Positions 51 to 22,729 of a stretch of 64,000 bases of DNA are shown one piece after another. Source of the stretch: Antennarius striatus (Eukaryota > Chordata > Actinopteri > Lophiiformes > Antennariidae); NCBI RefSeq assembly GCF_040054535.1, contig NC_090789.1:2571197-2635196 (forward strand), read 5' to 3'. Each line of letters starts with the position of its first letter. Position 1 is the stretch's first letter. The translations under genes and the position numbers were made by a program. The notes beneath the pieces are model-generated. The model did not search any database. It was not told the origin of the DNA and saw only the letters and a list, made by a program, of their open reading frames with translations.

Positions 51-102
51 TGTCGGCTGATCTACACGTAGTTCAGTTCTGTCTCCCATCCTTTGTCTTC
101 AG

Positions 103-405
103 TACCTGGTGAGTGTTCCTCTGAAGATGTTCAGACTGTGGGCCTTCATGGGGATGATGGCTCAGGTACGACTCCGCCCATCTCTCTCTCCCTCTCCCCC
201 TCTCTCTCTCGCTCCTGCGACACACAAACACACTTTGACCTTTGAACCTCACCTCCAGGTTCCTCTGGCTTGGTTCGTGAGCCGTTTCCTGAATGGAAAC
301 TATGGCAACGCCGCCGTGTGGCTCTCACTCATCCTTGGCCAACCAGTCGCCGTGCTGATGTATGTTCACGACTACTATGTCACTCACTATGGAGGCACTA
401 CATAG
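103..405 (+). CDS. dgat1: Diacylglycerol O-acyltransferase 1, last two coding exons (partial gene)
   Basis: DGAT1 is an ER-membrane MBOAT enzyme that joins diacylglycerol and fatty acyl-CoA into triacylglycerol. The exons are 103-165 and 259-405, both phase 0, with a CAG acceptor, a GTACGA donor and a TAG stop at 403-405. The translation contains [17 protein letters not shown], then [20 protein letters not shown] and IVHDYY-type C-terminal sequence ([14 protein letters not shown]). This matches the C-terminal end of vertebrate DGAT1, which includes the last transmembrane segments. The rest of the gene lies left of the window. Fish carry dgat1a and dgat1b, and this fragment does not show which one it is. 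The first residue of exon 103-165 is Tyr and belongs to an open codon, so no start is expected here. Confidence 0.95.
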
Positions 406-889
406 GACTGGACCAGCGCATGGAGACACACAAACAGACTCTTTTCCAATCCTTTCCAGTCTTTTTCTCGTCTGGTTGAGATAATGTTTAACATTATCGT
501 GCATTTCTTTGCTCGTTCGATGACTTTCAGTCATGTGAATGTTGTCAACAGCCAATCAGAAAGCAGGTAAATACTACACATGGAATGAGAAGTGCAGGAA
601 CTGGGACCACAGCCTTTTCCTACTCCTGAAGGCAAAATCTTTAAAATCCTGTCGCGTCCGACTTCTGATAAACTTTTGTCTCTCAAAAGTCTTCTCAGAC
701 TCTTCTCATGTCAGAGGTGAGTCCCTGCTCGTAAACAGTGAAAGACGCGGGTTTTGTTTAAGCGTATTCCTTCATTTTTTAGTGAAGAGAATTGAACTAG
801 GGTTTAAGTTTCATTGGTTCAGTAGGACACCTTCTGATTGGGGCAGCTGTTAATAATCATGAGCGCCAAAGAATGTGCAAAGCAATAAA
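406..889 (+). other. Probable dgat1 3' UTR with AATAAA at 884-889
   Basis: This unique sequence follows the dgat1 stop codon and contains no plausible gene. A canonical AATAAA at 884-889 is the first good polyadenylation signal, about 480 bp after the stop. The 3' end is inferred from that signal only. Confidence 0.5.
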
Positions 890-1689
890 TGCTTCACCTC
901 TTGATTTTCTATCTGATATCACTGAAGTGGAAACAACGCAGGCTTTCTCCGTGAACACGAGCAAAAGCAGGAATCTGAGGACAGAGAGAGAATCTGGACG
1001 TCAAAGAGCGACGGAGAAACGATAAAAGGATCTTTTTGATGCCATGTGTACAGCTGGATCCCTTCTGTTTCTCAACTCCTCCACTTTTTACTGAAACAGT
1101 TCTTCTAAAGGCGTTTCCAGCCTTATTTTATTTCCTTTTTTTTTTACCATTTGAATAATAATGAACTTTATATAATCATTTGTGTTAATCTATGTGTTGT
1201 TATATTGTGCCATTTTGGAAACATGACCTGTTTTGTTAAAAAAAAAAAAAGTCCTGAAGTTAATTTACTGATAAGAACCAATGAATGTATTCTGGCACTT
1301 TAAAGACATGCATGCTTTTGACTAAAGCAATAGATTTCTGTGAATGTTATCTTTAATGCGTTCTTTGGTTAAAAGGATCATTTTTATGTTTTGTAATCTC
1401 ATTTTAGGGATTTTGTCGGGTATGTTTAACTGATGCAGTGGTAAAAAGATTCACACGGCCTTCATAGACAAAACCTTTGTAAGTTTTTATAACAAAATGT
1501 TATAAACCGAGGCATCTGTAAGAGTATTTTATTTGTGGACGGCGGCACGATGGGATGTTGTACAATTATTGTAGCATTGATTTTTGTCATATCGTACACA
1601 GCTTAGAGACTATGCTATTAGATTATGTTTGATAAAGATAATTTATATTTGTTGAATGGATGTCTTTTTCTTGTTTTATTATACAAGCA
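890..1689. other. Intergenic stretch, no gene seen
   Basis: This is AT-rich sequence between the dgat1 3' end and a DNA-transposon-like repeat. Only short chance open frames are present, and nothing was recognised. Confidence 0.6.
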
Positions 1690-2255
1690 AATGTTGGTTT
1701 TCAAACGCTTCAGACATCGAACAAATCTGAATTCGATCAAAAAATGTGGACTTTTTTTTGTCTTAGAAGTCGAACAAAATTTGGAAGTCGAACGCCTTTT
1801 TCTCGCCGCCAAGCGCGAGAAAAGGCGAGAAAAGTCGAGAGAAAACGTGACGGTAATGTGCTTTTTATTTTAGTTTACTGTATTCAATAATTTTTCACTT
1901 AATTTGCGTTCCATTGCCTATGGTACGAGTTAGGGTACCGTAAACTTCTGTCCAAAAGATGACGGTAACTTGTACTTTAGGCTAACCTGATTACGTCGAT
2001 GTTTTTCTGTCTTGCTTTCTCGTCTTTGCTTCTTTCTTTTACATTTCTTTGATAAGTTTCATTACTATACAACTTGATGTATAAATGACATTATGAAATA
2101 GCATATGTTGAAAAAAGGTTAGTTTTCTAGCGTCTTGGAACGGATTAAGACCATTTACATTATTTGTAATGGGAAACATGTATTTGGAATTCGAACAAAT
2201 CACTATTGGAACACCCTTCGGGAACAAATTGTGGTCGGAAACCGAGGTTTGCCTG
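1690..2255. mobile_element. Pogo/Tigger-like non-autonomous DNA element (approximate left edge)
   Basis: The right end reads inward as CAGGCAAACCTCGGTTTCC next to a TA dinucleotide at 2256-2257. It resembles the CAGGCNNACCTCGNTTT termini of pogo/Tigger elements. The body carries repeated 'tcgaacaaa' phrases typical of an interspersed repeat. The left terminus could not be placed and no transposase frame is visible. The family call is by resemblance only. Confidence 0.4.
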
Positions 2256-2271
2256 TATTTTTCTGTATGTC

Positions 2272-2893
2272 AAGAAAAACTCAACACCAGGTCTGGAGTG
2301 GGAGGTAGGAACAGTGAAGGTTGAGAAGCTATTTGTGTGTGATTGTGTAAATGTATGACTGTGTGGAGGAGTGTTTCACCTTACCTTTTTGGCTCAGGAC
2401 AGGCAAGAAGAGTCCATCTGTCTGAGAAATAGACTCTCCTAATGCGACCGTTGGCGTGGATCTGAGGGGAAAGCAGATACAGTACAGTCGTACTGCAGCG
2501 TTTCCATAGTAACAGTCTAGCAGTAGCTATGTGCTCACCTGTACACGCAGCATCTCAACATAATTGGTTCCGTCGGCCCTCTGCTGAAAAACACCGTCCC
2601 TTCATGGAGTGTGATGAATGAATCCACAATCGCCGGTCTGATGGATTGAGAATGGATTATCAGCAATTACTATTTATTAATTTTTTTTATTTCATGTGTT
2701 ATATGCAAATAAAGGCATCTTGTTTTAGCCTGGGTTTAGTTCAAATGCTTTTGTAGGGAGCAATCAGTGAAGACGGGTCGGTGAACACTGGCAAGAAACA
2801 CCTGTTTGCATCCAAGCCAACCCAAAAAACTAGTTGCTATATTGACCTGTTGCTTAGCAACAATACCTCTTGCCCGAGCATGTATAATGCCCT
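2272..2893 (-). pseudogene. Dead CFAP20 copy (exon 5, part of exon 4, intron 1 remnant)
   Basis: This is a fourth, non-functional CFAP20 unit. Positions 2272-2335 match the 3' flank of the conserved gene (16632-16686) almost base for base. Exon 5 sequence is present around 2385-2463 but its middle is missing: the codons for the L-Y-S-E-D-E-L-P part are gone. The end of exon 4 (GTNYVE.LRVQ) lies at about 2540-2590 and then breaks off. Positions 2695-2890 match intron 1 of the conserved gene (17703-17935), including the GTTGCTTAGCAAC box. Exons 1 to 3 are absent here, although a short scrap resembling the exon 3 donor occurs at 3423-3455. The close match to the conserved copy rather than to the two paralogs indicates a separate, more recent duplication. 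Confidence 0.75.
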
Positions 2894-3780
2894 TAACATT
2901 TAACACTTATGTCAACTAGCACCTGAAGGTGGACCAACATGTAAAGTCTTTCAATAAAAACTCGTTACATTTACGTGGCACTGAGGGGCGAACGGGGAGA
3001 ACTTCGGACGCGTGTTCTGGCAACAAGAAACCAATGTCCAATGCGGCAAATGTCTTTGAGTGCTGGACCCATTTAGTTTCTCGTGTGCTCACCTTTACAC
3101 AAGTTAAATCGTCACATGCTCATAGTTCATCTCCACCAAGTTTTTATCAGGTAAGTATCCATTTAACCGTTTAGATCCTGACACAATCCAAAACTCTTCA
3201 CACAAACCGTCCTGCCACCACACACGGTCAAAAAAACTGTATTCTTGTCCCGGTTCACACACCTGCCGTTCATCACCGGCACCTTCCCTAAATCACCTGT
3301 GCTCCCAGCGCAGCGCTCCACCTTGTGTGCAAACAACAGGACCACACCCACACACCATGACCTCTGCACCAATCAACAAGAAACAGAACAAAAATATTAC
3401 TGTGGCTCCAACACAACATATTCTGTGTACACTTGTCTACCTTACCTGGACCATTGCGGTTACCAATATCAAAACCTGCTATCATAGCAACTTACAACAG
3501 CACATAAAAAGAATCAAAATACAGCAGCAATTATCTGATTTAAAAACTGAAAGACTTTATCACATGCATGAATTTACAAGTACACCAGTAGTGAAATTGC
3601 AACAACTCCCTCACTGTGCAAACAGAAATAGACATGAACCAAATAGCAGAATAAAAATAGATTGTAAGTACATACACTCCTATATACAGTCTCACAATAT
3701 ACATTCAATACACAATATATACAAGTGGTCAAGCAAACACAGGCTGAGTTATATGTGAGAGTCCTGCTTTTTGCCCGGAT
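2894..3780. other. Intergenic, mostly featureless
   Basis: No gene is supported. A 143-codon open frame (3327-3758) has low-complexity Thr/His/Ile/Asn composition and no recognisable domain. A scrap at 3423-3455 resembles the CFAP20 exon 3/intron 3 junction. Confidence 0.5.
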
Positions 3781-4365
3781 GGGGTTCAGTTGACCATCAC
3801 ATGAAGATGAGGACCCTTTGTTCAAGTTTGTTTCTGCGCTCTTCAACACTTCAGATGAAGGTTATTTCTGTTTCCTGGATGTGGCATCTTTCAAGATTTG
3901 AGAGTGCAACTCATTTTTGTCGCTTTTCATTCATTCATCAACCGCTTCTTCCGCTGTTGCGGGAGCCAATCCCTTTAGATCTGAGGTGAGAGGCGGGGCA
4001 CATGTTGCATTTCACTTAAACATTTGTTATCCGCCCATCCACCCATCTGTCCGTCCATCCGTCAATCCATTTGTCTACCACTGTAATTTTTATACTTCCA
4101 CAGTTGAAAATACATTTGCAGAGGTCTTACTGAGGTCTGACAGAGGTATGGAATAAAATCCCTGCTTTAGTGGGGGGTTTTTTTTAGTAGGCAAACTGGA
4201 GCACCCGGAGTAAACCCATCCAAATTGTTACCATTAGCTTCTTGCCTGATAGAGCTTGTATGGCGATCCACTGCGGCACCGTGACACATTATCATGATTG
4301 TCACTTGCCTATCGGAAAGAATCCTTCCCTCACTCTCCCCTACAGGAACAGTGTAGGTTGAGAAA
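3781..4365. repeat. Left flank of the CFAP20-like unit, shared with 7200-7500
   Basis: The sequence around 3850-4110 (the 'ggttatttctg...cctggatgtg' phrase and the 'catttgtctac...gtgtaattttcat' stretch) recurs at 7235-7480 beside the second paralog, so the tandem duplication extends beyond the genes. A fish SINE/LINE-tail fragment is inserted at 3925-4000 ('accgcttcttccgctgttgc' core) in this copy only. A scrap of another common fish repeat ('gagcacccggagtaaaccca') is at 4199-4219. Confidence 0.5.
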
Positions 4366-5781
4366 TTACTGCTGCAACAAAAAACAACAACACACAAACA
4401 GATGAGTGTCAGAGAAGTGGAATGTTGTGTACGATTGTGTAAATGTATGTGACTGTGTGGAGGCGCGTTTTACCTGCCCATGGACAGGAGAGTAGACTTT
4501 AAAATCTGGTGGGAGCTGATCCTCAGAGTACAACTTGTCTGAGAAATAGACTCTCCTGATGCGACAGTTGGCGTTGATCTGAGAGGAAAACAGAAATGGG
4601 GTTCAGTCCTAGCTCAGCATAGTGAGATTCTAACAACAGCTATAAAGCATCTTTTTGTCTCAATGCGCTCACCTGTATGCGCAGCGTCTCAACGTAATTG
4701 GTACCGTAGGCCATACTGGTGAAGTCCGATATGTTGAACAGGATCTGGTTCCAGCCGTTGTCCAGCCTCAGGGGCAGGGTGCAGATTAATGGATCCACCC
4801 GAACCGTGCCCCGGTAGTTACTTACCCTAAACCGCCGGCGAAAATTTTTGTCATCCAGCACCTGAAAGTTAAACGGCAGCCTGAGAAAAATACAGTTCCA
4901 GGAACCACACGCGACTTAACGAATTCCGCGATAGAGCGACAAACTATATATCTTATTATTTACGGAAATTTAAACGTTTATGAACCCTCCCCATACTGGA
5001 ATTAAATCTACTTCTATCCCACACTCTTATTTACTCTTTAAAGCACTTTTGTCTCAAGGAAGTCCAAGACTCACAGAACAGAGCAGACTTTGGGATTCCG
5101 TCAGCCAATAGAATGCGTGTACCGTATCACGTGACTGCCTACCAAAAATCCGCGATGAGGTGAAGTCACGAGCGTTGATGCGCGAATGTGCAAGGGCACA
5201 TTGTTTATGGAATATTCTATGTACGCTTCACTTGTCCGCCTTACCTGGACTTCAAATGAGAAGTACTTCTCTAGATTCTTGACAATCAAGACCAAAACAG
5301 GAAGCTGGATACCCAACGTCTTCTTTGGGTCTGCTGGGCAAGATATGTATGTGGTGCTGTAGGGATTAAGATATTAGGGATAAGAATGATGAGTCACCAG
5401 TTGATGAGTTAATCTGACACACAAAACCAGGTGAACACACACACATACTCACCTGACGTTTGCCCCTTCGACCTCCAACACCTGTGAGCGGATGTCGTTG
5501 TCGAGGATTAACCCAATTTGACCGTTCCTCACCTGTCAACACAAATAAACGTGATTTACGGTATTACATATTTTATTATTGTTTTTTGTTTTTTTTTGCT
5601 GGCAACAGTTCACAGGAAACCTTGCTGACGGTGGCAATCATTAGCATGGCTACAGGTAAGGAAGTCAGAAAACATTTCATTTCAACAGCTTGCTTGCCTT
5701 TTCTTCCCATATTTCAAGGGGGTTGCTGCCAATGCTGTATAAAATAGACAGAAGCGAACCTTGAAAAGTGTGTCTAAACAT
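4366..5781 (-). CDS. CFAP20-like protein, divergent tandem paralog 1 (191 aa, intact)
   Basis: By homology this is a ciliary doublet inner-junction protein. Six exons: 5698-5781, 5453-5532, 5245-5356, 4673-4861, 4474-4578 and 4366-4371. Exon lengths and phases match the conserved CFAP20 at 16687-18219, except that exon 5 is three codons shorter. It starts [18 protein letters not shown], keeps [36 protein letters not shown] and [12 protein letters not shown], and ends PVHGQ plus a two-codon last exon, CAG TAA. The total of 576 nt gives 191 residues against 193 in human CFAP20. All acceptors are AG. The intron 1 donor is GC (AAG|GCAAGC), the known minor donor type; the others are GT. Many normally invariant residues are changed, for example F to V in KLPFLVMI and V to F in DDKNV. 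Intron 3 is enlarged by a repeat at about 4895-5190. Transcription is unproven. Confidence 0.85.
4895..5190. mobile_element. MITE-like insertion in intron 3 of CFAP20-like paralog 1
   Basis: Intron 3 is 383 bp here but under 90 bp in the sister paralog. The extra sequence contains 'ttccgcgatagagcg' near one side and 'aaatccgcgatgagg' near the other, phrases typical of pogo-like fish MITEs. Exact ends and a target duplication were not found. Confidence 0.35.
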
Positions 5782-6639
5782 TTTTGCCGTTTCTTTGTCC
5801 CTGATGCTATGTGTGTCGTGTGTATATATATATATATATATAGTTTACGTACCACATCAAAGCAGCATACATCATAACGCAAGGTGAGATCACATGAGAG
5901 CCGATCAGAATTACCCGGATCTGCTATTATTAATTATTAAGATATCGGAACCTATCTCCTTTGATCTTTTTCTTGATTTCCTAGCATAATGGTCGAGTGA
6001 ACGGCACCTAGTAAAAGGGACATGTGCTCCTTTGTCTTTCTATGTACGTACAATTTTTTTGTGTAATTGCTGTGTAAACGACCCATGATAATTGGGACAT
6101 CTCCTCTTTTTCAATCATTGATCTTCTTATTTGCTTCTTCATGGGTCACAGGAGTTGCTGAGGAAATTCAATATCCTACTAAAGCTGTAAACAGTATGGG
6201 GTAATAAAAACTAAAACTGAAGAACAGCTTCTATGCAATTGCCATAAATCTGCTGAATTCTGCCAAACTCCTCTCAAGCATGTATACATACATGTATCAG
6301 GATTTTTGTGTAATTTAACATACATTATCGATACTGTGCATCATTTCATTTACTGTGAACGGGTGTCAGAACATTTGATAGTCGCCATCTTTACCTTTTG
6401 CCCTGCCCCCTTTGTGTTCTTATTTATCATATCCACTTTTTTTAATCAGTCATGTTCTGTTCTTCTTTTTTTTTTTAAATAAATGTATCTGCACCAAACG
6501 AGAGAACCCAATGTCTTTGTTGGATTTAACAATGACAATTAAATTAATTCTTGATTCTTGAGTCTTGATGTTGAATAGCCCATTCCCAAATGATATGAAG
6601 CATCTCAAGTGTGATGCATTTCTAAAAAGCAGGTCTCAC
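5782..6639. other. Upstream flank of CFAP20-like paralog 1
   Basis: Positions 5782-5930 match 9200-9345 upstream of the sister paralog (shared 'tttgtccctgatgctatg' and 'aaggtgagatcaca'), so the promoter side was duplicated too. An AT run (TA)n at 5822-5842 lies about 45 bp upstream of the ATG and could act as a TATA element. No X-box was found. Beyond about 6130 the sequence is unremarkable. Confidence 0.5.
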
Positions 6640-7190
6640 AAATGTATAAAGGGCTCACGGCTGATATCTCCCAAAACACTTGGAGCATCAAAGAAAAATG
6701 GGAATTAGAATTCCATAATTAACTATAAAGAATGGGAAGATTAATGTTCCAGCAGTCATAGGGGACTAAAGAGTCAATTATGGAAGGAATGATTGAAAAC
6801 TAAAAATTAGATAATTCAATACACCTTTGAACATCAAGGAATCTTCATTTGTTATTTGATGGAGGAACTGTGGAATGATAGGGGATCACACACATGTGCT
6901 GTGGGATTGCCCAGTAATCCAGGGGTTCTGGAGAAATACTCGAAAAGAAATGGATAACATGTTGGCGGCGACTGTCACGGTGTGGATCGGGGCTCGATGT
7001 TGCGGATTCTTTCACTGATTGCTAAGATGATAACAATGAAATGGAAGGATGAGAAACCACCATCAGTAGAGTCAGACACTAAAACAGTGGCATTATGGAA
7101 CACATGACTGCAAGACAGCAACTGAAAATGGACATTTTTATTCAGAGGTGGAAATGTGTCACAACATAACATAACTAACAAATTAAGACG
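6640..7190 (+). mobile_element. LINE fragment, L1-clade ORF2 C-terminal remnant
   Basis: Positions 6869 onward read CGMIGDHTHVLWDCPVIQGF followed by WRNTRKEMD, the Cys/His zinc-knuckle-like tail found after the reverse transcriptase of L1-type LINEs. About 130 bp later K-MKWKDEKPPSVES-like sequence follows, as in the same families. The frame is broken by stops and indels on both sides, so this is an old 5'-truncated copy. It separates the two CFAP20-like units. Confidence 0.6.
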
Positions 7191-7844
7191 AGGCGTTCAG
7201 GATCCTTTATTCCAGTCCGTTTGGGCTCTTCAAGGTTATTTCTGTCATGTCTTTTCCTGGATGTGAGTTCAAGATGCAGCTTTAAACCGAGACGTCGATG
7301 TTTGAAGACGTCAATGCAACGGGACATGTTGTGAAATGATGATATAATTGATTTATTCGTATCGTACACAGCTTTGAGAGGGCAACTAATTTTCATTGCA
7401 TTTCACTAAAAACATTTGTGTTTCATAAATCCATCCATTGATTTGTCTACTAGTGTAATTTTCATGTTTCAACTTCATCAGCTGAAAATCCACTTACATA
7501 CATATGGAATAAAATTCCATATCCATATATGATGCAACAGTGCTACCTACTTCGCCACCGTGCCCCCACACCCATGGACATTAACAGAATTAAGTTCTTA
7601 ATACATATATTATTTGTCACATACCTACACAAATTAAATCTTAAAAAAAAAAGAAGAAAAAAAAAGCGCCAGCTCTAGAGGGTAGGAAGGAGGAACAGTG
7701 CAGTTAGAGAAGCTACCCTAGCCTAGCCTATCCCATAATCCCAGAGGTCGCTGGGGCATCACAGACGACACACAGTTGTCATCATATGGTGTGTCTTGGG
7801 CAATTGAACCTGGCGGCGCCCATCTCTCTCCAGGTTGGACGCAG
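7191..7844. repeat. Left flank of the second CFAP20-like unit
   Basis: Positions 7235-7480 are homologous to 3855-4110, so this is the outer part of the duplicated unit. The remainder (7500-7840) includes an A-rich run at 7640-7667 and scraps of common fish repeat. No gene is seen. Confidence 0.5.
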
Positions 7845-7850
7845 TTTATT
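7845..7850 (-). terminator. AATAAA polyadenylation signal of CFAP20-like paralog 2
   Basis: On the minus strand AATAAA begins six bases after the TAG stop (7857-7859). The analogous position of the conserved gene reads differently, so the signal may be new. Whether it is used is unknown. Confidence 0.4.
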
Positions 7851-7856
7851 GAGAAG

Positions 7857-9199
7857 CTACTGCTGCTGCGGCTGCTGCGGCTGCTGCGGCTGCTGCGGCT
7901 GCTGCGGCTGCTGCGGCTGCTGCGGCTGCTGAGGCTGCTGCCGCTGTAAAAAACAATCGAGTGTCAAAAACAAGTGTCGTGTTGTGTACGATTGTGTAAA
8001 TGTAACGACTGTGTGGAGGTTTCACCTTAGCTTGCTCCCTCCGGACGGGAAGGTAGAGTTTAAAACTTGCCGGGAGCTTATCTTCAGAGTACAACTTGTC
8101 TGAGAAATAGACTCTCCTAACGCGACAGTTGGCGTGGATCTGAGGGGAAAACAGATGGTACAGTCGTAATGTAGCGTTTCCACAGCAGCTATGAAACATC
8201 TTTTTGTCTCAATGCTCTCACCTGTACACGCAGCGTCTCAACATAATTGGTGCCATAGGCCAAACTGGTGAAGTATGATAGGTTGAGCGGGATTATGTTC
8301 CAGCCGATGTCCAACCTCATGGGCAGGGTGCACATTAATGGATCCACCCGAGATGCGCTTCGGTAGTTACTTACCCTAAACCGTCGGCGAAAATTTTTGT
8401 CATCCAGCACCTGAAAGTTAAACAACAGCCTGAGTGCAACTTCAAAATATACGGAGTGTTCTATGTACACTTCACTTGTCTAGTCTGCCTTACCTGGACT
8501 TCAAATGAGAAGTACTTCCCTAGATTCTTGACTATCAAGACCAAAACAGGAAGCTGGATACCCAACGTCTTCTTTGGGTCTGCTGGGCAAGATATGTATG
8601 TGGTGCTGTAGGGATTAGAAGACATTAGGAATAAGAATGATGAGTCACCAGTTGAGTTAATCTGACAAACAAAACCAGTTTCAGCACACACACACACACA
8701 CATACTCACCTGACGTTCACACCTTCCACCTCCAACACCTGTGAGCGGATCTCATCGTCGGTGATTTTCCTGATTTGACCATTCTTCACCTGTCGACACA
8801 AATAAATGTGATTTACGGTATTACATACTTTTAAATTTTTTTATATGAAATTTTGGTTTTTGTATTACTGGCAACAGTACAAAGGAAATATAAAAAAAAT
8901 GTAACAAGACCACTGTCCTGTTATAGTTTTGATTTATATATCAATGTTTGCTCCAAGCAACACCTTGCTAGACAGTGGCTAGCATTAGCACAGCTACAGG
9001 TGAGGAAGTCAAAAAAAAAATCATTTTTGAGTGAAGTGTACATAGAACATTCCATATATTCTAAAGTGTCACTCAGGCTGACGTTTAACTTTCAGGTGCT
9101 GGATGACAATTGTACCTTTTCTTCCCATATTTCAAGGGGCTTACTGCCGATGCTGTATAGAATAGACAAAAGCGACCCTTGATAAGTGTTTCTAAACAT
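7857..9199 (-). CDS. CFAP20-like protein, divergent tandem paralog 2 with PQQ-repeat tail (221 aa, intact)
   Basis: By homology this is a microtubule inner-junction protein. Six exons: 9116-9199, 8710-8789, 8494-8605, 8222-8410, 8026-8139 and 7857-7943, with the same phases as CFAP20. It begins [20 protein letters not shown], continues [56 protein letters not shown] and [20 protein letters not shown], and reaches [13 protein letters not shown]. In CFAP20 the last exon is just CAG TAA. Here it is 87 nt and encodes R-QQ-P-QQ-(PQQ)x7-Q, then TAG. The 666-nt CDS gives 221 residues. The intron 1 donor is GTACAA, created by an inverted insertion (9031-9115); the other splice sites are ordinary. It shares its derived residues with paralog 1, so the two split after leaving the conserved copy. 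Expression is unproven. Confidence 0.85.
7860..7940. repeat. Nonamer CAG/CCG repeat in the last exon of CFAP20-like paralog 2
   Basis: On the minus strand this is a tandem array of CAGCAGCCG units, seven exact copies plus imperfect ends. It is in frame with the gene and encodes Pro-Gln-Gln repeats. It likely grew from the single CAG codon of the ancestral last exon. Confidence 0.9.
9031..9115 (+). repeat. Inverted duplicate of CFAP20-like intron 3/exon 4 junction
   Basis: Read on the plus strand, this stretch matches the minus-strand sequence of the intron 3 end and exon 4 start (8400-8470 reversed), including 'aactttcaggtgctggatga'. It sits in opposite orientation at the exon 1 donor of paralog 2. 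It replaces the 'cttgctcacc' donor context seen in the conserved gene. Confidence 0.75.
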
Positions 9200-10107
9200 T
9201 TTTTGTCCTTTTAATTTTTTTGTCCCTGATGCTATGGGTGTCGTGTGTATATATCTAATTTTTGTACGGGATCAAAGGGATGTAGATCATAACCTAAGGT
9301 GAGATCACAGGAGAGCAGATCAGAATTATTAGATAATAATAGATGGCAGAACTCATCTCCTTTGATGTACGTACAGTTTTCTAACATGATGGTCGTGTGA
9401 AAGACACATAATAGACGAGAAGTACACTTTGATCTTTCTATATAGGTACATACAATTTTTTTATGTAATGGCCATGATAGTGACCTGTAATAATTGGGAC
9501 CTACACACCTTTTTCATTCATTCATCTGCTTTGACTCTTTGTTACGGTCGTACAAACCAAGGAAGTTCAATTGTAATATAACAGGTGAATTCTTCCTGCT
9601 TAATGACAGTTGCTAATTCTTTGAAAAATTATAAGTCATGGACACGGTGTGATCAGTCATTTCTCTTTTAATACATACCGGTATGGAGAGCAGAGCACTC
9701 AAAAGAGTCTTACTCTGACAATTGTTCCAGCATTTCCTTATTTATACGCATTCAAGCCCATCCCAAGAACAGATTTACATTTTACAACAGACAGAAGTTT
9801 ACCGCTTGTAGGGTTATCAAGCTTTATTACCTCCTGTGATTGATATTTTTTAAGGTCCCTTGAACATGTCCCTTAGTGTATGAACAACCCTTTTCATACA
9901 GAGAAAATTTTCTCCCAAAACTTGAATGCAAACAGTCACAAATACAGACAGACATAACTTTGATGATGTAGTTTGGACTTGTGGCCAATCTGCACCAGAT
10001 CTACTGTATATCTCTACCTATCTTCCCCTCTCAGTTGTGCTGACAGGGGTTGCACCAGGAGTGATAAGAGGAAACGTGGAGAACCTGATCAGATTAAATT
10101 ATGTACA
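9200..10107. other. Upstream flank of CFAP20-like paralog 2, no gene seen
   Basis: Positions 9200-9480 are homologous to the upstream flank of paralog 1. After that the sequence is AT-rich with no recognised feature. Confidence 0.5.
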
Positions 10108-10190
10108 CTCTAGTGGTTTAGTACTCTGCATTTTGGCCGCAGCAACTCCGGTTCGAATCCAGGTCAAGGCAGCTTTTAATAAGAACAAAT
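10108..10190 (+). repeat. tRNA-derived SINE fragment
   Basis: An A-box-like 'tagtggtttagtac' and a B-box-like 'ggttcgaatcc' are spaced about as in a tRNA, followed by non-tRNA sequence. No cloverleaf with a proper acceptor stem can be drawn. A SINE head is more likely than a tRNA gene. Confidence 0.5.
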
Positions 10191-11097
10191 TGTGCCCATA
10201 CAGCATTACAAGTACAGTTTGTGTGTATATATCTGATGGGGAGGTCTCTATGCTGTTGGGGGGGGGGTGGTCTCTATTCATTCACAGGTTCAAACCTTGT
10301 GTTTATTTAAATTGTGCTATATAAATAAAGTGGATTGCATTGGATGTAAAGAACGACTGAAATGCTGTCGTGTGTCTGTCCGGGCAGTAGGGGGCAATGT
10401 TCAGCAAATGTCCATCAGAGGAGTGTTCATGAACTCTACAGTTTACAGGACAAACTAAAGCAGACGGTCCACATTGTGTTGTTGTTGTTGTTGTTGTTGT
10501 CTCCAGTGTTCTATTGTTTGAGTTTACATAGAAATGAGGCGGGGACCATCGTCAGCTGAGCTGTGACGTCATTTTCATGCTGCGTGTTCAGGTTGCATCT
10601 CTCAGTGTGGTTCTGAAAAGGTTCCACTGTGGAACCTGTTGTCACAGGTTTGTGTGTTCAGCTGTGAAACATCCACTCAGGTGGATGGAAGCCAGCAGGG
10701 AACAACAGCTGACAGCTTCTGGATGAAATGATCGTTCTGTCAAAGAACCTCGAGCGTCAGAATGCAGTCATGATGGCAGCTCTGTGAGGGTGGACAGATT
10801 GACCTCATGACCTCAGACACGTGACGCAACATCTAGTCATCGATAGCTCCTGATTGTTTGTCCGTTGCCCTGGAGACAGAAGAAGAAGCTCAGACCTGGC
10901 TGTGCTGTGGAAATGAAAGCCAGCTGCAGGGCTCAGCAGGACATTTGATAGCGTCACCCTGGAGCTGTCGGCGCTCCTCTGCGCCTCCATCTTCTCTTTT
11001 GCATTTGGAGTGAAGGCAGAGAGTCCATCCCATCAGGACCGCTTCACTGGGCCTGTCTTCACCAGACGCGTCCTGATGCAGCATCAAAGCTACGGAT
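10191..11097. other. Intergenic, no gene seen
   Basis: This holds a G-run near 10258-10267, a (GTT)n tract at 10477-10500 and otherwise unique sequence. No coding exon or RNA was recognised. Confidence 0.5.
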
Positions 11098-11624
11098 CAG
11101 AGGTGTCAAATTCATTTTCCCCGAACGCCACATCAGCATAACGTCTGTCCTCAAAGGACCAGATGTAACTTATAAATATAACTAAATGTAACTCACTGTA
11201 AAATGAAATAAATGTAAATACTCCTTGATGTGAAGTAACTCTGAATTTATTACTTATTCAAACTACACACCTTACAGTTGCACAGAAAAAAATTAATTGG
11301 TTTGTTCCTCTGTTATAACATAAATCCTTTTAATTTATCAGGTAATTAAAGCCACAGAACTCCATCATTCAGGCATCAAACTATCAATGAAAAAAGAAAA
11401 ATAACATCAAACACAAGTTAGGACGTTAACTTTATTCAAAACGTTTTTGTCAAAATTAAAATGGGCTTAATTACTGCATTGTGGGTAATGTAGTTTTTGG
11501 ACAAACCACACTTTAGACCTATCTATTTTTAGACAATCTGATTTTTTTTTTATGCTCTCGTGGGCCACATTAAATGATGTGGCGGGCCACATTTGGCCCC
11601 TGGGCCTTGAGTTTGACACACGTG
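11098..11624. mobile_element. hAT-like non-autonomous element
   Basis: The ends read CAGAGGTGTCAAATTCA and, inverted from the right, CACGTGTGTCAAACTCAAG, with the 'gtggcccg/cgggccac' phrases common in fish hAT MITEs. A second, inverted and truncated copy is at 39690-40030. No transposase frame is present, and an 8-bp target duplication is not evident. Confidence 0.55.
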
Positions 11625-12012
11625 CACAACATCATTAAAGGTGACGTCATGTTCACCTGGACACAGTTAATGTTAATGACCTTTTTTTTTTCTGTGAAGA
11701 ACCCAGAAAGGGTTATTTGGTTACTATCTTTGTAATAAATAGTGTCATTTATTTCATTAACAGTGTTACTTATTTATTTCTTGACTTTTTTTCTGTTAAG
11801 ATCCCAGAAAGGGTTGTTAATATTTAGTTATGTGTGCTTTCTGGAAGACAATAAATGTTTACATTTAGGCAGCCCTGCCATCGTCACAGTTTTTTCTGTT
11901 ACAAACTGACCCCGGCCCCCCAGCAGAGAAGGGGAAAGTTAAAGCTAAAAGTTTGGAGACGCCTGTTTTACCCCCACCCCCCATCCTCTGGCGCACTTTA
12001 AACTCAGCTCCA
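11625..12012. other. Region upstream of the MHC class I promoter
   Basis: This is AT-rich sequence with a repeated phrase ('cccagaaagggtt' at about 11702 and 11806). No gene is seen. Confidence 0.5.
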
Positions 12013-12072
12013 TTCACTTTCACTTTTGATTCACTACCTGTGACGTCACTGCTCAGGCTAAACTGCCATTGG
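12013..12072 (+). promoter_or_regulatory. MHC class I proximal promoter: ISRE, X2 (CRE-like) and Y boxes
   Basis: An interferon-response-like 'ttcactttcacttttg' lies at 12013-12028, a perfect TGACGTCA (X2/site alpha) at 12041-12048 and a reverse CCAAT, ATTGG (Y box), at 12068-12072. The order and the roughly 20-bp X-to-Y spacing match the ISRE-SXY module of vertebrate class I promoters. That module is bound by IRFs, CREB/ATF, RFX and NF-Y and is used by NLRC5. It is 118 bp upstream of the ATG. Confidence 0.7.
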
Positions 12073-12189
12073 CTCAGAAGGACGGGGAAGTCCGCTGCTC
12101 TCCGTGTTCCGTCCTCACTTCACCCTTGATGGTCGGACTGGAAGCTTCACCAGAGACTCCTGTCGGCTGTTGTGTGTTCGGAGCTGCAG

Positions 12190-13118
12190 ATGCGACTGGT
12201 CACCATGACGACCTTGGTTCTGGTGGTTCTCCTGGGAACAGGTGTACCTGGTGCGGCGGGAGGTGAGGTCACGTGATTTCCCGATCGGGAAGGAGGAAGA
12301 GTTTGGTGTGTTTGTAGCCTGCTGGATGGATTCAGGGCTCTGTTGACGGACTTCCTGACATGTTAGCACCTGAGAAATGTTCAGGGGTGACCCAGCTGTC
12401 ATCTGAAAGCTGAGCAGCTGATCCAGGATCCAGCAGGGGTAGATCCAGGGTAGATTTGATCCAGGGTAGATTTGTTCCAGGGTAGATTTGTTCCAGAACC
12501 GGTTTGTCCAACATTCTTGACGTGACGCAGAACACAGAAACATGACCTCCTTGTGTTCAGACAGCAGACGACAGGAAGGATTCTGATTGTAGAAATCCTT
12601 CCAGTTATCAGCTGATCATCAGAAACAACAAGAGCAACAGGAAGGAGACTTGATGAAACCAGAGAAGAACTGACTGAACAACAGACGCCATCAGAACCAC
12701 TTTACTGGAGCCCAGTTCTTGTTGGTTCTGTGTGCAGGAAAATCAAATGTTTCACTGGTTTATGAAACACAAATCATGTTTCTGTTTCTTTCAGTGACTC
12801 ACTCTCTGAAGTATTTCGAAACTACATCTTCTGGAGTCCCAAACTTCCCAGAGTATGTGGCTGTTGGGTTGATTGATGACGTTCAGATTGTTCATTATGA
12901 CAGTAACACCAAGAGAACAGAACCCAAACAGGACTGGATGGAGAAAATCACAGCAGATGATCCTGAGTACTGGAACCGAGAGACTAGGATCAATGAGGGG
13001 AACCATGAGACGGCCAAAGTCAACATTGAAACTGCAAAGAAACGTTTTAACCAATCTGAAGGTTTGTTTATGTTTCTACTGATAAAATGTTGTTTATGTT
13101 TTCATGCTGCAGGAAGTA

Positions 13119-13155
<37 letters not shown>

Positions 13156-14568
13156 TTGTTCATCTGTCGATCAAACTGCTCGATGGCGTCTCTTGCTGAC
13201 TCAGCACAAACATTCCTGTCAGACGACTGGATGCTGCTGGACTTCACTGACCCAGTGTTTCTGTCCATCCCATAATAACCAGCAGAGATCGCTGAGACTG
13301 GATCAGAATAAGTCCATTGAGAGTCTCTCTCTCTCTCTCTCAGGTTTCCATATTGACCAGAGGATGTATGGTTGTCAGTGGGACGATGAGACTGGAGAGG
13401 TTACTGGTTTTGAGCAGTATGGTTATAATGGAGAAGACTTCCTGGTCCTGGACCTGAAGACAGAGACCTGGATCGCTCCCAGACCTCAGGCTCTCATCAC
13501 CAAACACAGATGGGATCATGACAGAGCTTGGATGGAACATAAAAAGCATTACTACACCCAGATTTGTCCTGAGTGGGGGAGGAAGTATTTGGAGAATGGG
13601 AGGAGCTCTCTGCTGAGAACAGGTAGGATCACATGACCTGATGGAGTTTCGTACCGACAACCTTCATGTTTCTCTGGTGTTTGTGATCAACAGTAAACAA
13701 TAAAGATGAACGACACACAGACAACACTTCAGATCCATCCCATCAAACAGAAGAACAAACAGTGACTCCTGGTGAGGAGCATCTAAAGTGTGTTTGTGCT
13801 CCTCCTCCAGAGCTCCCCTCAGTGTTCCTCCTCCAGAAGACCCCCTCCTCTCCAGTCAGCTGCTTCGCTACAGGTTTCTACCCTGACAGAGCTGCACTCT
13901 TCTGGAGGAGAGATGGAGAGGAGCTTCATGAGGAGGTGGACCACGGAGAGATCCTCCCCAACCATGATGGAACCTTCCAGACCAGTGTTGACCTGAACCT
14001 TTCATCGGTGGCCCCTGAAGACTGGAGGAGGTACGACTGTGTGTTCCAGCTGGAAGGTGTGGAGGACGACTTGGTCACCAGACTGGACAAAGGAAAGATC
14101 TGGACCAACTGGGGTGAGACGGGGGTCGGGGGGGTGGGGGGTGGAGACACCTTTATTTCCTGCACTTCTGTTCAGGTTGTGACTCGTTGTTGTTTTCTTC
14201 TCTCCAGAGGAGCCCACTGACGTGACCCCCCCCACCACCACCACCATCATCACCATCATCGCTGTACTGGTTCTTGCTCTCGTTGTCATGGCAGCCGTTG
14301 GGTTCAAGCTTTCCAGACAGAGGACAGGTGAGGGGTCCGAACAGAAGCCGTCTCTTCCTCCCAGCTTTGATTTGACTCTCTGACCTGATGCTTTGACTCA
14401 GCGTGAAGCAAACTTCACGGTGGGATGACGAGTCTTTGTTTTCCAGCTAAACGTGGTTCAGTTCCTGAGGACAGCTCTGAGCTCTCTGAGAGACTGCAGC
14501 CGGGGGTCGGGGAGCAGCCGGAGGTCGGGGCGCAACCAGAGGTCGGGGAGCACCAGAATGTGATCTGA
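12190..14568 (+). CDS. MHC class I heavy chain, classical-type (U-lineage-like), 387 aa
   Basis: This surface glycoprotein presents cytosolic peptides to CD8 T cells together with beta-2-microglobulin. Exons: 12190-12262 (leader), 12795-13061 (alpha 1), 13344-13622 (alpha 2), 13811-14113 (alpha 3), 14208-14327 (connecting/TM) and 14447-14568 (tail), all phase 1. The leader is MRLVTMTTLVLVVLLGTG. Peptide-anchoring positions are Y7 (LKYF), Y59 (PEYW), R84 (KRFNQS, usual in fish), T143, R146 (usually K), W147, Y159 and Y171. Cys101/Cys164 and the alpha 3 cysteines (VSCFATGF, YDCVF) are present, with the NQS glycosylation site at 86. The TM segment is IITIIAVLVLALVVMAAVGF. The tail has three degenerate EVGxQP-like repeats and ends HQNVI. 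The upstream ISRE/X2/Y boxes suit interferon induction. Lineage is judged from anchor residues only. Confidence 0.93.
12436..12496. repeat. Minisatellite in MHC class I intron 1
   Basis: About 3.5 copies of a roughly 17-bp unit around 'ccagggtagatttgtt' lie in intron 1. Confidence 0.7.
13118..13153. repeat. (AC)n microsatellite in MHC class I intron 2
   Basis: This dinucleotide array lies between the alpha 1 and alpha 2 exons. Confidence 0.9.
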
Positions 14569-15028
14569 TCAAATCCATCAGGATGAGGATCTAGTTATCG
14601 ATGGTTATTGATTAGAGTCTGTAGAAAACGCACTACAAATATTGAGTAAACGTGGTCAAACTTAAAGGGTGTCATTAAAATATTTTATTACGTTTTATTC
14701 ACATTTTTCTTCCTGGAGACGTAAAACAGGATCTTTCCAACAGAATCATCACAGCTGTCTTCAAACCACATTGCTGGTTTAACAGGAGTTGATTCAAACA
14801 CGTCACCATCATTCCAATTCAAAACTTCTGTCCTATTGGTCCTCCTAGGGTCAGGTGACCTGACGCTACCTTGACATGAGATCTGACAACCACTAGAGAG
14901 TTGTCTCTGCTGTTTATTCTGAGAAAGTCTTTCTGTGCTGCTAATCTAACTAGTTAACTAGGTAAACATTGGATGAAATTGTTCTGTTGGTTGGTTTATT
15001 GTCAGAACAAATTCTGCTTTGCAATAAA
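14569..15028 (+). other. MHC class I 3' UTR with AATAAA at 15023-15028
   Basis: This follows the TGA at 14566-14568. The canonical AATAAA at 15023-15028 gives a 3' UTR of about 470 bp. Confidence 0.6.
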
Positions 15029-15451
15029 ATCCCATATTTTACACGTGTCTCATCATTCTCACTTCTTTCACTTTAAACAATTATTCCGGATCGTCCTGGA
15101 GGATTTGAACGTTCATTTATTTCCTCTTTTGTTGTGTTTTTATGTGTTTTGAAAACGTTTCCAACTACTTAATATGTTTATTTCAAAGTTTAAAATGCTT
15201 TAAAGGAATAAAGATAAAGCTCTCCTAATGGATAAAAAACTGAGAGGCGGGACATAGCTGCGAACGACCATTGGCTAGTGCAGAGCAGACCGGGTTCGAG
15301 ACCATTTCCAGACCAATCATTGAAGAGTACGTAGAAAGCTGAATTTGAAATGACAAAAAAAACAACTAATCTATTGATAAACAGAAAAAATGTGACAACC
15401 ATAATTGGTCAGGGGTTCATTAATGGATGTTCAAGTGTTGAATAAAATACT
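15029..15451. other. Spacer, no gene seen
   Basis: This unique sequence lies between the MHC class I 3' end and the U6-bearing repeat. Confidence 0.5.
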
Positions 15452-15488
15452 GGAGCTTGAAATACAGGATGGTGATATTCACAACTCT

Positions 15489-15507
15489 GTCTTACTTCGG
15501 TAATACT

Positions 15508-15544
<37 letters not shown>

Positions 15545-15594
15545 GGCCCCCTGAGCAAGGATGGCACGCAAATTCGTGAAGCGTTCCAAATTTT
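15489..15594 (+). pseudogene. U6 snRNA-like sequence, near full length
   Basis: The 106-nt match covers the whole of U6. The central 'ggaacgatacagagaagatt', the AGCATGGCC with its AGC triad, and the 3' 'acgcaaattcgtgaagcgtt' are intact. The 5' stem-loop is altered (gtcttacttcggtaatac for gtgcttgcttcggcagcac), the internal stem region is changed (ccctgagcaaggatggcac), and the 3' U tract is only four long. No convincing TATA/PSE is seen upstream. Most likely this is a U6 pseudogene within a repeat. Confidence 0.75.
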
Positions 15595-16090
15595 GGAAAA
15601 GATAAATTGTCTTCATTTAATTAAAGCGCCACCATCCAGTCCTCACCACACTATAGGGTAAAAGAGACAAGTTATCAAAGCTACATCCCTATCCAGGACA
15701 CACCAAGAGCCCCAAACATACATTACATCCCAGCAAGATACGTGTTTATCATAAACTACAGAAAGAAATCTGCTGTTTGCGTTCATCAGAAAACAAAATT
15801 AATCGGACTGAGAGGCGAAACTGACTGTTGTAGTTCCACAAATCTGCCACTGAGTGTCGCTGTGTGATCGCTGTACGTGAGGGCTTCAGGGACGCAGCTG
15901 AGTCGTCAGATTTCAGAGACTCAGGCGACACATGACAATGAAAACTTCAAGTTATAATAATTTGTATCAACATTAGTCGTCATTCCTTCCACACTTGTAC
16001 AATTTTAAATTCTGTGTTGCGACCCCCCCCCCCACTGTTTTCTTCACATTGAAGAAAACAGTGATTGAATCTTACAATCTTACAAATCTT

Positions 16091-16143
16091 CTAATCTTCT
16101 TTGTATCGTTCCAATTTTAGCACATGTGTTACCGAAATAACAG
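16091..16143 (-). pseudogene. U6 snRNA 5'-half fragment
   Basis: The minus strand reads as the first 50 or so bases of U6 (tcggtaacacatgtgctaaa, then ttggaacgatacaaagaagat). The ACAGAGA box is mutated to ACAAAGA. It stops abruptly after the 'agattag' phrase. Confidence 0.7.
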
Positions 16144-16384
16144 GTGGGGGAAAAAAATCACCATCCTGTATTTGAAGCGTCAAACAATTCAAGTGTCACT
16201 GGAACTTCTAAATTCCGACGCGTCAGCTGCGTCACTGAAGCACTCCTGTTCAGCGGTCACACAGCGACACTTAGTGGCAGATTTGTGGAACTACAACAAT
16301 TCGGTTTGGTCGCTTCCTGTTGTGTCTCACAGTCTATTTTTGTTTTCTGATGACAATAAACAGCAGATTGTTTGATGAAGATCA

Positions 16385-16686
16385 TTTATTGTAATATATT
16401 ATATTTCTCTGTAGTAGCAGCCATCAATAGAGGACCTGTGTTTTCATTCACGTGGTTCTCAACTTGTTACGAGATTAGAAAGCAGGATGCACAGAAAATA
16501 GAGGATACGTGAGTCAATAAAAATATTTTAATTAGAACACAGTAAACACAAAATAGCACTGAAAACTCATAGTCCAAATCAAAACATACTAAACTGTATT
16601 AAAGTATATCACAAGAAAAAGAATTCTTTTAAGAAAACTCAACACCAGGTCTGGAGTGGGAGGGAGGAACAGTGAAGGTTGAGAAG
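16385..16686 (-). other. cfap20 3' UTR, AATAAA (minus) at 16385-16390
   Basis: This is the downstream side of the conserved CFAP20. A minus-strand AATAAA at 16385-16390 lies at the edge of the U6-bearing repeat. Part of this flank (16632-16686) is duplicated at 2272-2335. Confidence 0.45.
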
Positions 16687-18219
16687 TTACTGCTGCAATA
16701 AAAAAAATAAAACAGTTGGTGTCACACAAGTTCATGTTGTGTACGATTGTGTAAATGTACAACTGTGGAGGAGTGTTTCACCTTAGCTTTCTGGCTCAGG
16801 ACAGGCAAGAAGAGTTTGAACTCTGCCGGGAGCTCATCCTCAGAGTACAGCCTGTCTGAGAAATAAACTCTCCTAATACGACAGTTGGCGTGGATCTGAG
16901 GGGAAAACAGAAATGGTACAGTCGTACTGCAGCGTTTCCCTAGTAACATGCTATAAAACAACTATAAAACGTCTCTTAGTCTCAGTGCGATCACCTGTAC
17001 ACGCAGCGTCTCAATATAATTGGTTCCATAGGCCCTCCTGGTGAAGTCCGATAAGTTGAACTGGATCTGGTTCCAGCCGTCGTCCAACCTCATGGGCATG
17101 GTGCAGATAAACGGCTTCACCCGAGTCGTGCTTTGGTAATTACTGGCCCTAAACCGCCGGCGAACATTTTTGTCATCCAGCACCTGAAAGTGGAACGACA
17201 TCCTGAGTGACACTTCAAAACATACAAAATGTTCTGTGTACATTTGTTCACCTTACCTGGACTTCAAATGTGAAGTACTTCTTCAGGTTCTTAATTATCA
17301 TCACCAAAAAAGGAAGCTTAATACCCAATGTCTTCTTTGGGTCTGCTGGGCAGGTTATGTATGTGGTGCTGTAGGGATTAGAAGCCATTAAGAATTAGAT
17401 TGACCAGTAGATGAGTTAATCTGACACACAGAACCAGTCCAACACACACAAACTCACCTGACGTTCGCCCCTTCCACCTCCAACACCTGTGAGTGGATGT
17501 CATTGTCTGTAATTCTCTTGATGTGGCCATTCCTCACCTGTCAACACAAGGGTCATTTACAGTATTACATATTTTCTTATCATTCATATGAAAATAACGC
17601 TGTATGACCACGGTCATTTAGATCATCTTGCTATTATTCTGCCAACTTGACACAGGTGAAATGTTCATTTTTCAATTTTTCCATACCTCAAAGATCTCAA
17701 ATAAACACGTGTTATATGCAAATGAACACATCTTTTGCCAGCCCGGGTTTTAATTGAAATGTTTTTACAGAAAAAAAAAAAAGTGAAGACGAAAAAGTCT
17801 GTAAATACTAACAAGGAAAACGTGTCCATCTTCAACGTGCTGCATCTAAACTAAACCAAAACAGTCTTCGACTAACTACGAGTTACTCCATTGACCTGTT
17901 GCTTAGCAACAACACCTCTTGCCCCCAGCTGGTATCTTGACTAAAATAATGTGTTTTTCTGGTAACACTGTGCAGGAAATCCAAAAACATAACAGGACCA
18001 AACCGTAACCGAATTAATAGTTGTATATATATATCATCATTTGGTCCAAGCAGCATCTAGCTGACAGTGGTTAGCATTAGCACGGCTACAGCTAGGGAAG
18101 TCAGAAAAATCTTTAATGGTGAATAGCTTGCTCACCTTTTTATCCCATATTTGTAGAGGTTTGCTACCGATGCTGTATAATATCGACAGGAACCCGCTTT
18201 GGAAAGTGTTCTTGAACAT
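16687..18219 (-). CDS. cfap20: Cilia- and flagella-associated protein 20, conserved copy (194 aa)
   Basis: CFAP20 (Bug22/GTL3) is a microtubule inner protein at the inner junction between A and B tubules of ciliary doublets, where it works with PACRG. It is needed for cilium stability and motility. Exons: 18136-18219, 17458-17537, 17257-17368, 16995-17183, 16782-16895 and 16687-16692 (CAG TAA), all GT-AG. The protein starts [20 protein letters not shown] and contains [79 protein letters not shown] and [16 protein letters not shown]. It matches human CFAP20 almost throughout. Small differences are the LSQKAKQ end (human QNKAKQ) and the [12 protein letters not shown] region. The start is the family's normal MFKNTFQ. 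Intron 1 carries an X-box-like site. Confidence 0.97.
17898..17910. promoter_or_regulatory. X-box (RFX site) in cfap20 intron 1
   Basis: GTTGCTTAGCAAC is a near-perfect RFX palindrome (GTTGC, 3-nt gap, GCAAC). RFX factors drive ciliary genes. It is about 310 bp downstream of the ATG. The same 13 bases occur at 2849-2861 in the dead copy. Intron 1 of the two intact paralogs has only a 'ggcaac' half. Confidence 0.5.
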
Positions 18220-21897: not shown

Positions 21898-22690
21898 ATG
21901 GACGCCATTGTCCCCAACGTGACCTCAACCTCTGATGCCCTCCTGCCTCTCATGACCCCTCAACCAGCAAACTGCAGTGCCTGGGACCAGCGCTGGGGGG
22001 CGCAATATCACAGGTTGGCCCACCTGGATGTTCAGCTGTACCAAGACTTCTACGCTGTGTGGGTCTCTCTCATGGTAATTTAAACTTTTTCTAAAGAAGA
22101 AGTTTAAGGTTTTCATCTTCAAAATTTCACAAAAAAACAACTACAACATAACTTTGCATGTTTATCTTTAAATTTTATTCACTGATGCTTCGTTCGTCTT
22201 CGCCGCAGGTGTTAAACTGTCTGATGCTGGTGGTTGGCGTCGTCCTCAACAGCCTGGCTCTCTACGTCTTCTCGGGGGCCTCCACCCACTCCTCCGCCTC
22301 CGTCGTCTACACCATGAACCTCGCAGTGGCCGACCTGCTGGTGGCGCTGTCGCTGCCCGCTCGCATTGCCCTGTACCACAGCGGCGGGAAGTGTGTGGCC
22401 TGTTCCTACGTTCACACCTTCAGCTACTTCGTCAACATGTACTGCAGCATCCTGTTCCTGACCAGGTGGGTGTCTGGAAGCGACCCATCCCATCCCAGAT
22501 TGTTTGGTGCTTCCTCTTTTCTCTGTGACTCTTCCTCCGCTCTTCCTCTCAGTATCTGCATAGATCGGTACCTCGCCGTCGTCCACACGTCCGGTACTCT
22601 TCATCGATGCCGGACCACCGGAACGGCAAAGTGCGTCAGCGCCACGGTGTGGTTGGTGGCTGTTGTGGTCACCTACTCTTTCCAGGTGGA

Positions 22691-22729
<39 letters not shown>

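Follow-up and report, generated by a model that had tools for sequence, protein, structure and literature searches.

A conserved cfap20 gene and two divergent, intact paralogues on one strand of a locus in the frogfish Antennarius striatus

CFAP20 (FAP20, Bug22, C16orf80) is an inner-junction protein of ciliary doublet microtubules, for which the solved chains 7rro_XA and 6u42_3W, among others, are available. Its positive charge is described as facing the A-tubule, its residues K20, H33, I34, K35, R36 and T38 as contacting PACRG and the C-terminus of FAP20 as lying outside the doublet (PMC6994238). Loss of CFAP20 is reported to damage motile cilia and vision, and Y86, R102, R113 and R153 are given as the residues of human CFAP20 retinal dystrophy (PMC9633640); a review describes an additional nuclear role in the rescue of arrested RNA polymerase II (PMC13303910). 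Among the closest described systems are insects, in every studied species of which the CFAP20 orthologue Bug22 is reportedly duplicated (PMC6826512), and trypanosomatids, in whose inner junction the paralogues PACRGA and PACRGB are described as alternating with CFAP20 (PMC7617938). Here, we analysed a 64,000-nt stretch of the genome of Antennarius striatus (the window; all coordinates are positions within it). Exon reconstruction revealed three CFAP20-type genes, designated A, B and C, on the minus strand:

16687..18219, minus strand: copy C, conserved cfap20, six exons (18219-18136, 17537-17458, 17368-17257, 17183-16995, 16895-16782, 16692-16687), 194 aa; gene model, CFAP20 chain match
7857..9199, minus strand: copy B, divergent cfap20 paralogue, six exons (9199-9116, 8789-8710, 8605-8494, 8410-8222, 8139-8026, 7943-7857), 221 aa, (QQP)n C-terminal tail; gene model, Pfam
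7862..7946, minus strand: 9-bp tandem array, 9.4 copies, encoding the (QQP)n tail of B
4366..5781, minus strand: copy A, divergent cfap20 paralogue, six exons (5781-5698, 5532-5453, 5356-5245, 4861-4673, 4578-4474, 4371-4366), 191 aa; gene model, Pfam, public protein P0001

The three genes are arranged head to tail. Exons 1 to 4 have identical lengths in all copies (84, 80, 112 and 189 nt), exon 5 comprises 114 nt in C and B and 105 nt in A, and exon 6 consists of CAG-TAA only in C and A and of the 9-bp repeat array in B. The spliced frames contain no internal stops. The Pfam domain CFA20_dom (PF05018) was identified over residues 1–184 of C (E 9e-96), B (9e-84) and A (1e-82), and copy C matched the solved CFAP20 chain 7rro_XA with an E value of 9e-125. 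Protein identities are 157/191 for A and B, 143/191 for A and C and 144/194 for B and C, corresponding to 74-75% identity of A and B to C. A public A. striatus protein, P0001 (cfap20-like, 21.4-Mb sequence), equals A over 190/190 aligned residues; its last 18 residues differ from our model of A because the public model omits the six-base exon 6. A preliminary description of this DNA had claimed three six-exon genes of this type, one conserved and two divergent but intact; all were rebuilt where it had placed them, with open frames, and this observation is confirmed.

Each copy has five introns, which rules out a processed retrocopy, and in introns 2, 4 and 5 the identity of A and B to C is 76-90%. 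As these introns were retained and can still be aligned, A and B are DNA duplicates, in agreement with the earlier proposal of duplication at the DNA level rather than retroposition. A and B are thus lineage-specific paralogues of a known family. The resemblance to the insect Bug22 duplicates, drawn from their published description, is that a CFAP20 orthologue is present in more than one copy; the insect duplication was a separate, much older event. With the trypanosomatid proteins the frogfish locus shares a duplicated subunit, which there gives a variant inner junction, but it is PACRG that was duplicated there and CFAP20 here. No report of tandem CFAP20 paralogues in fish was found among the titles and abstract openings of the literature searched; a blue catfish paper (PMC9316979) was set aside as it deals with cfap206.

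Further cfap20-like paralogues were found in A. striatus itself (P0081, 209 aa, 25.1-Mb sequence), in the sea bream Pagrus major (P0066) and in the filefish Nelusetta ayraudi (P0048). Judged by the sizes of the sequences that carry them (25.1 versus 21.4 Mb), P0081 is probably located on another chromosome than A. The statement of the preliminary description that CFAP20 is normally single does not hold in general, in view of these proteins and of the reported insect duplicates (PMC6826512).

How far A and B have departed from CFAP20 was assessed at 106 near-invariant positions within residues 1–155, defined as showing the same residue in 97% or more of the 168 homologues that served as controls. 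These controls exclude A, B, C, P0001, P0081, P0066, P0048, P0104, P0137 and rows with at least 40 gaps. None of the 106 positions is changed in C, compared with 23 in A, 22 in B, 25 in P0081, 18 in P0066, 14 in P0048 and 12 in medaka P0104; the most divergent control rows show 11, 6 and 6 changes, the controls being top-scoring matches with many near-copies and hence biased towards conserved sequences. The residues contacting PACRG are all retained in C, whereas five of six are replaced in A (by N, Q, G, L and L) and three of six in B (H33Q, K35R and R36K, two of them K/R swaps); two are changed in P0081, one in P0066 and none in P0048. The residues Y86, R102, R113 and R153 are retained in A, B and C. 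The positive charge described as facing the A-tubule is lowered in A, the net charge over residues 1–183 being +2 in A, +8 in B and +11 in C. As to the beta jelly-roll fold of CFAP20, a sequence match to the solved protein spans residues 1-192, and two AlphaFold2 models of P0001 (built from 22 and 99 rows) were of low confidence, with mean predicted local distance difference test scores of 51.9 and 50.5. On the sequence evidence A and B are CFAP20 family members by domain and are not CFAP20 proper by near-invariance; A is placed outside CFAP20 proper by its PACRG edge as well.

Selection on the three genes was analysed with a custom-written three-sequence codon likelihood fit, not a published program, and with pairwise Nei-Gojobori (NG86) estimates over 183 codons. 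The latter gave synonymous (dS) and nonsynonymous (dN) divergences of 0.235 and 0.088 for A and B, 0.479 and 0.123 for A and C, and 0.424 and 0.133 for B and C. Tested against an omega (dN/dS) of 1, the estimates for A (0.33, p=0.016) and for C plus stem (0.30, p=5e-5) were both lower. With A and B tied omega was 0.45 (p=0.006), or 0.44 (p=0.006) with exon 3 excluded and 0.57 (p=0.15) for exons 4-5 alone. Differences between branches were not significant (p=0.41), and no branch showed an omega above 1 as a sign of recent selection for change.

Insertions and deletions (indels) were also counted. Over 257 aligned bp, introns 2, 4 and 5 show 8 such events. Large insertions in introns 1 and 3 led to their exclusion from this rate, and the rate including them is much the same (14 events in 500 bp for all five introns). 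At the rate of introns 2, 4 and 5 about 17 indels would be expected in the 549-nt coding core, and none was found in A or B; for B alone 5.3 frameshifts are expected, with P(0)=0.005. These results support the retention of copy A by purifying selection.

A different fate is documented by a dead copy, D, which was located in three pieces:

2276..2588, minus strand: D piece 1, exon 4 end, intron 4, exon 5 and 3' flank, derived from C
2693..2885, minus strand: D piece 2, a segment of C intron 1 with an X-box-like site
3413..3451, minus strand: D piece 3, exon 3/intron 3 boundary, 39 bp, 87%

Exon 5 in piece 1 carries an internal deletion of about 32 nt. The dead copy reported earlier thus exists, but as three fragments that have lost their gene order. 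The coding piece (2588-2276) shares 86.9% identity with C and 73-74% with A and B, and the intron-1 piece 76.1% with C, a figure that does not show D to be younger. D is thus a copy of C. In the same alignment A and B are 77.6% and 77.4% identical to C, yet it is D that is wrecked while A and B are intact.

P0081, P0066 and P0048 are 71-72% identical to A (P0081 71%) and share with A and B the residues G8, E27, R109 and D/N115. All four signature residues occur in A, B, P0001, P0081, P0066 and P0048; elsewhere among the 178 rows compared, medaka P0104 has two (E27 included), P0056 one and the others none, and G8 and R109 are exclusive to the six sequences named. Neither a five-paralogue profile nor a paralogue-like consensus, used as queries, revealed a further carrier of the signature among 175 retrieved proteins (per search, the best 120 of 1087 to 4676 matches); P0137, the top match of the consensus search, was discarded as it lacks the signature residues. 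P0081 differs from A and B at two human-disease positions: its W113 reproduces the substitution p.(Arg113Trp) known from retinal dystrophy, and its D86 falls on the residue altered in p.(Tyr86Cys) (PMC9633640).

Phylogenetic analysis grouped A, B, P0081, P0066 and P0048 in a 31-row tree (support 89/88), where a clade of A, B and C was rejected (p 0.0086, approximately unbiased test), and in a 23-row tree built from all columns (87/90), where both A+B+C (p 0.0022) and A+B+C+P0081 (p 0.0011) were rejected. After columns 8, 27, 109 and 115 had been dropped the group dissolved, the filefish paralogue moved to Mola, and neither A+B+C (p 0.070) nor A+B+C+P0081 (p 0.184) was rejected. The five-paralogue grouping therefore rests on four columns. 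Derived states are shared more often with the three other paralogues (29/94) than with 12 control rows (27/159; p=0.012, the sites not being independent). At the DNA level the genes A and B are mosaics: exon 1 reaches a dS to C of 1.86 or saturation, whereas exons 2-5 stay at 0.24-0.72 (Fisher p 0.005 for A, 2e-5 for B), with 0.24-0.25 in exon 4.

Two histories compete to explain these data. If gene conversion by C had overwritten parts of an old gene, both the shared signature and the exon mosaic would be accounted for. The alternative, that C gave rise to A and B inside the frogfish lineage, with the residues common to them and to the sea bream and filefish paralogues evolving in parallel, has a probability that we place somewhat under one half. 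It is favoured by the high identity of introns 2, 4 and 5 to those of C, the low dS of exon 4 and the collapse of the group without the signature columns, but with all columns both frogfish clades are rejected, G8 and R109 are confined to paralogues, and exon 1 is far more diverged at silent sites, as expected of an older gene partly overwritten. Partly because sea breams, filefishes and anglerfishes are regarded as closely related, we place the old origin slightly ahead. A more far-reaching scenario is quite improbable as a whole: sea breams, filefishes and anglerfishes would have inherited, from a single duplication in their ancestor, a second and fast-evolving CFAP20 lineage with the marks G8, E27, R109 and D/N115, which was kept beside cfap20 and partly overwritten by gene conversion, and in which the frogfish rewired the PACRG edge (A) and added a Gln/Pro tail (B) to give a cell-type-specific inner-junction variant.

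The splice sites and upstream regions of A and B also differ from those of C:

5533..5697, minus strand: intron 1 of copy A, GC-AG (AAG|GCAAGC)
9030..9109, plus strand: 80-bp inverted copy of B's own intron 3/exon 4 boundary (8397-8476, 90%)
5697..6128, minus strand: 5' flank and exon 1 of A, shared with B (9531-9115, 73%)
17898..17910, no strand assigned: palindromic RFX X-box-like site GTTGCTTAGCAAC in C intron 1

GC-AG introns are a rare but genuine class, and all introns of A, B and C other than A intron 1 are of the GT-AG type. The exon-1 donor matches the consensus at 8/9 positions in C, 7/9 in A and 6/9 in B (AAG|GTACAA). The inverted copy sits in B intron 1 directly behind exon 1, beside this weak donor, which seems to have arrived with the insertion. 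Transcripts of B could form a hairpin between the inverted copy and the intron 3/exon 4 boundary. The clean splicing ascribed earlier to both paralogues is accordingly too strong a wording for either, given the GC donor of A and the weak donor of B. Upstream, C shares with the 5' flank of A and B only about 31 bp before the ATG. The exact palindrome GTTGCYNRGCAAC, which we take to be an RFX-type X-box motif, is expected 0.011 times in 64 kb and occurs twice in the first 24 kb, in C intron 1 and in D (2849-2861). As A and B have no exact match to this site and their 5' flank differs from that of C, A and B may be controlled differently from C.

Our best explanation, to which we give as a whole slightly less than an even chance, is that A and B are extra cfap20 genes that arose by genomic DNA duplication beside, or from, the normal gene C and would now be far less constrained than CFAP20 without being free, A being kept by purifying selection and B more weakly or until recently. 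It draws on the intact frames, the omega of A and of A and B tied, the absence of indels from the core, the ruin of D despite its greater closeness to C, the retained disease residues, the changed PACRG contacts, the presence of P0001 in public annotation and the similar paralogues in other fish. The data directly show the gene models, the open frames, selection on A and the residue changes, while the expression, location and function of A and B are inferred; a new role is plausible in view of the changed residues. Since A keeps the core and the four disease residues, its protein is probably still able to fold and to attach to microtubules at the inner junction of the doublet. Its edge pairing with PACRG appears rebuilt, and A would thus most likely be a variant inner-junction protein in some cells, with PACRG contact changed or absent. 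B would keep its PACRG edge mostly intact and, as the FAP20 C-terminus lies outside the doublet, its Gln-Gln-Pro tail would point outwards. The role in sperm flagella that the preliminary description offered as a possibility is not supported: exact RFX-type sites in the first 24 kb lie in C and D and not in A or B, and the genome paper of A. striatus lists 13 tissues for RNA (BioProject PRJNA1078610), testis not among them; its main text does not contain the word "testis".

Several results weigh against this explanation. The omega of B (0.63) does not differ from 1 (p=0.38), and for exons 4-5 alone neither copy does (A p=0.09, B p=0.85). The frameshift estimate for B is loose: with the intron indel rate set at its lower 95% bound, a B free of frameshifts has a probability of 0.18. 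A neutrally evolving frame would have a probability of 0.11-0.20 per branch of staying without a stop. The exon-1 donors of both A and B are weak, and the exact X-box-like palindrome is absent from both in the first 24 kb scanned. Copy B is not among the matches listed in the protein searches (best 120 of 1087 to 4676), which suggests that it is not annotated as a protein. The PACRG-contact changes of A have a p value of 0.0029, which is uncorrected and refers to changes counted after the substitutions had been seen. Selection for the paralogues, as proposed in the preliminary description, is consequently supported for A and for A and B tied but not for B alone.

The omega of B, which does not differ from 1, the weak or non-canonical donors and the chance of a stop-free frame would also suit the view that A and B are relics, i.e. 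decaying duplicates with reduced or no function whose frames are open by chance or through a recent loss of constraint; the 22 and 23 altered near-invariant positions and the death of the C-derived neighbour D point the same way. We consider this rather unlikely, as it has to contend with the omega of A below 1, the lack of any indel in the coding core of either copy and the low probability of a frameshift-free B, even if the latter is less telling at the lower rate bound. A specialisation of A and B in the nuclear release of arrested RNA polymerase II, or in another PACRG-independent role, would fit the nuclear function assigned to CFAP20 (PMC13303910), and release from ciliary use would fit the lost PACRG edge of A and the missing X-box-like site of both copies; but neither sequence contains a nuclear pointer and B retains most of the edge, and we judge this improbable. 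That the copies are collapsed haplotypes or misjoined contigs is hardly credible: they differ by 18-26% of amino acids and in introns and flanks, lie 2.1-7.5 kb apart on one strand with a major histocompatibility complex (MHC) class I gene between B and C, and A is present in public annotation.

Other features identified in the window are the following; a search for tRNA genes gave no match.

100-417, plus strand: 3' end of a DGAT1 gene (MBOAT family; match to solved DGAT1)
12180-14570, plus strand: the MHC class I gene between B and C (Pfam alpha domains and C1-set domain; outer limits set by eye)
15489-15595, plus strand: U6 spliceosomal RNA copy between B and C (96 bits)
22158-23840, plus strand: rhodopsin-type receptor gene (Pfam 7tm_1), split over two open stretches
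53357-53812, minus strand: weak reverse-transcriptase match below the Pfam cut-off, probably the remnant of a long interspersed nuclear element

CFAP20 is among the most conserved ciliary proteins. If the shared signature goes back to a single old event, two CFAP20 lineages have existed in fish, a situation unremarked in the titles and abstract openings searched. In any case A and B represent natural inner-junction mutants, in which more than 20 otherwise fixed positions are broken and the frame is nevertheless open. They show which positions of CFAP20 are dispensable, and offer a test of CFAP20 without PACRG contact.

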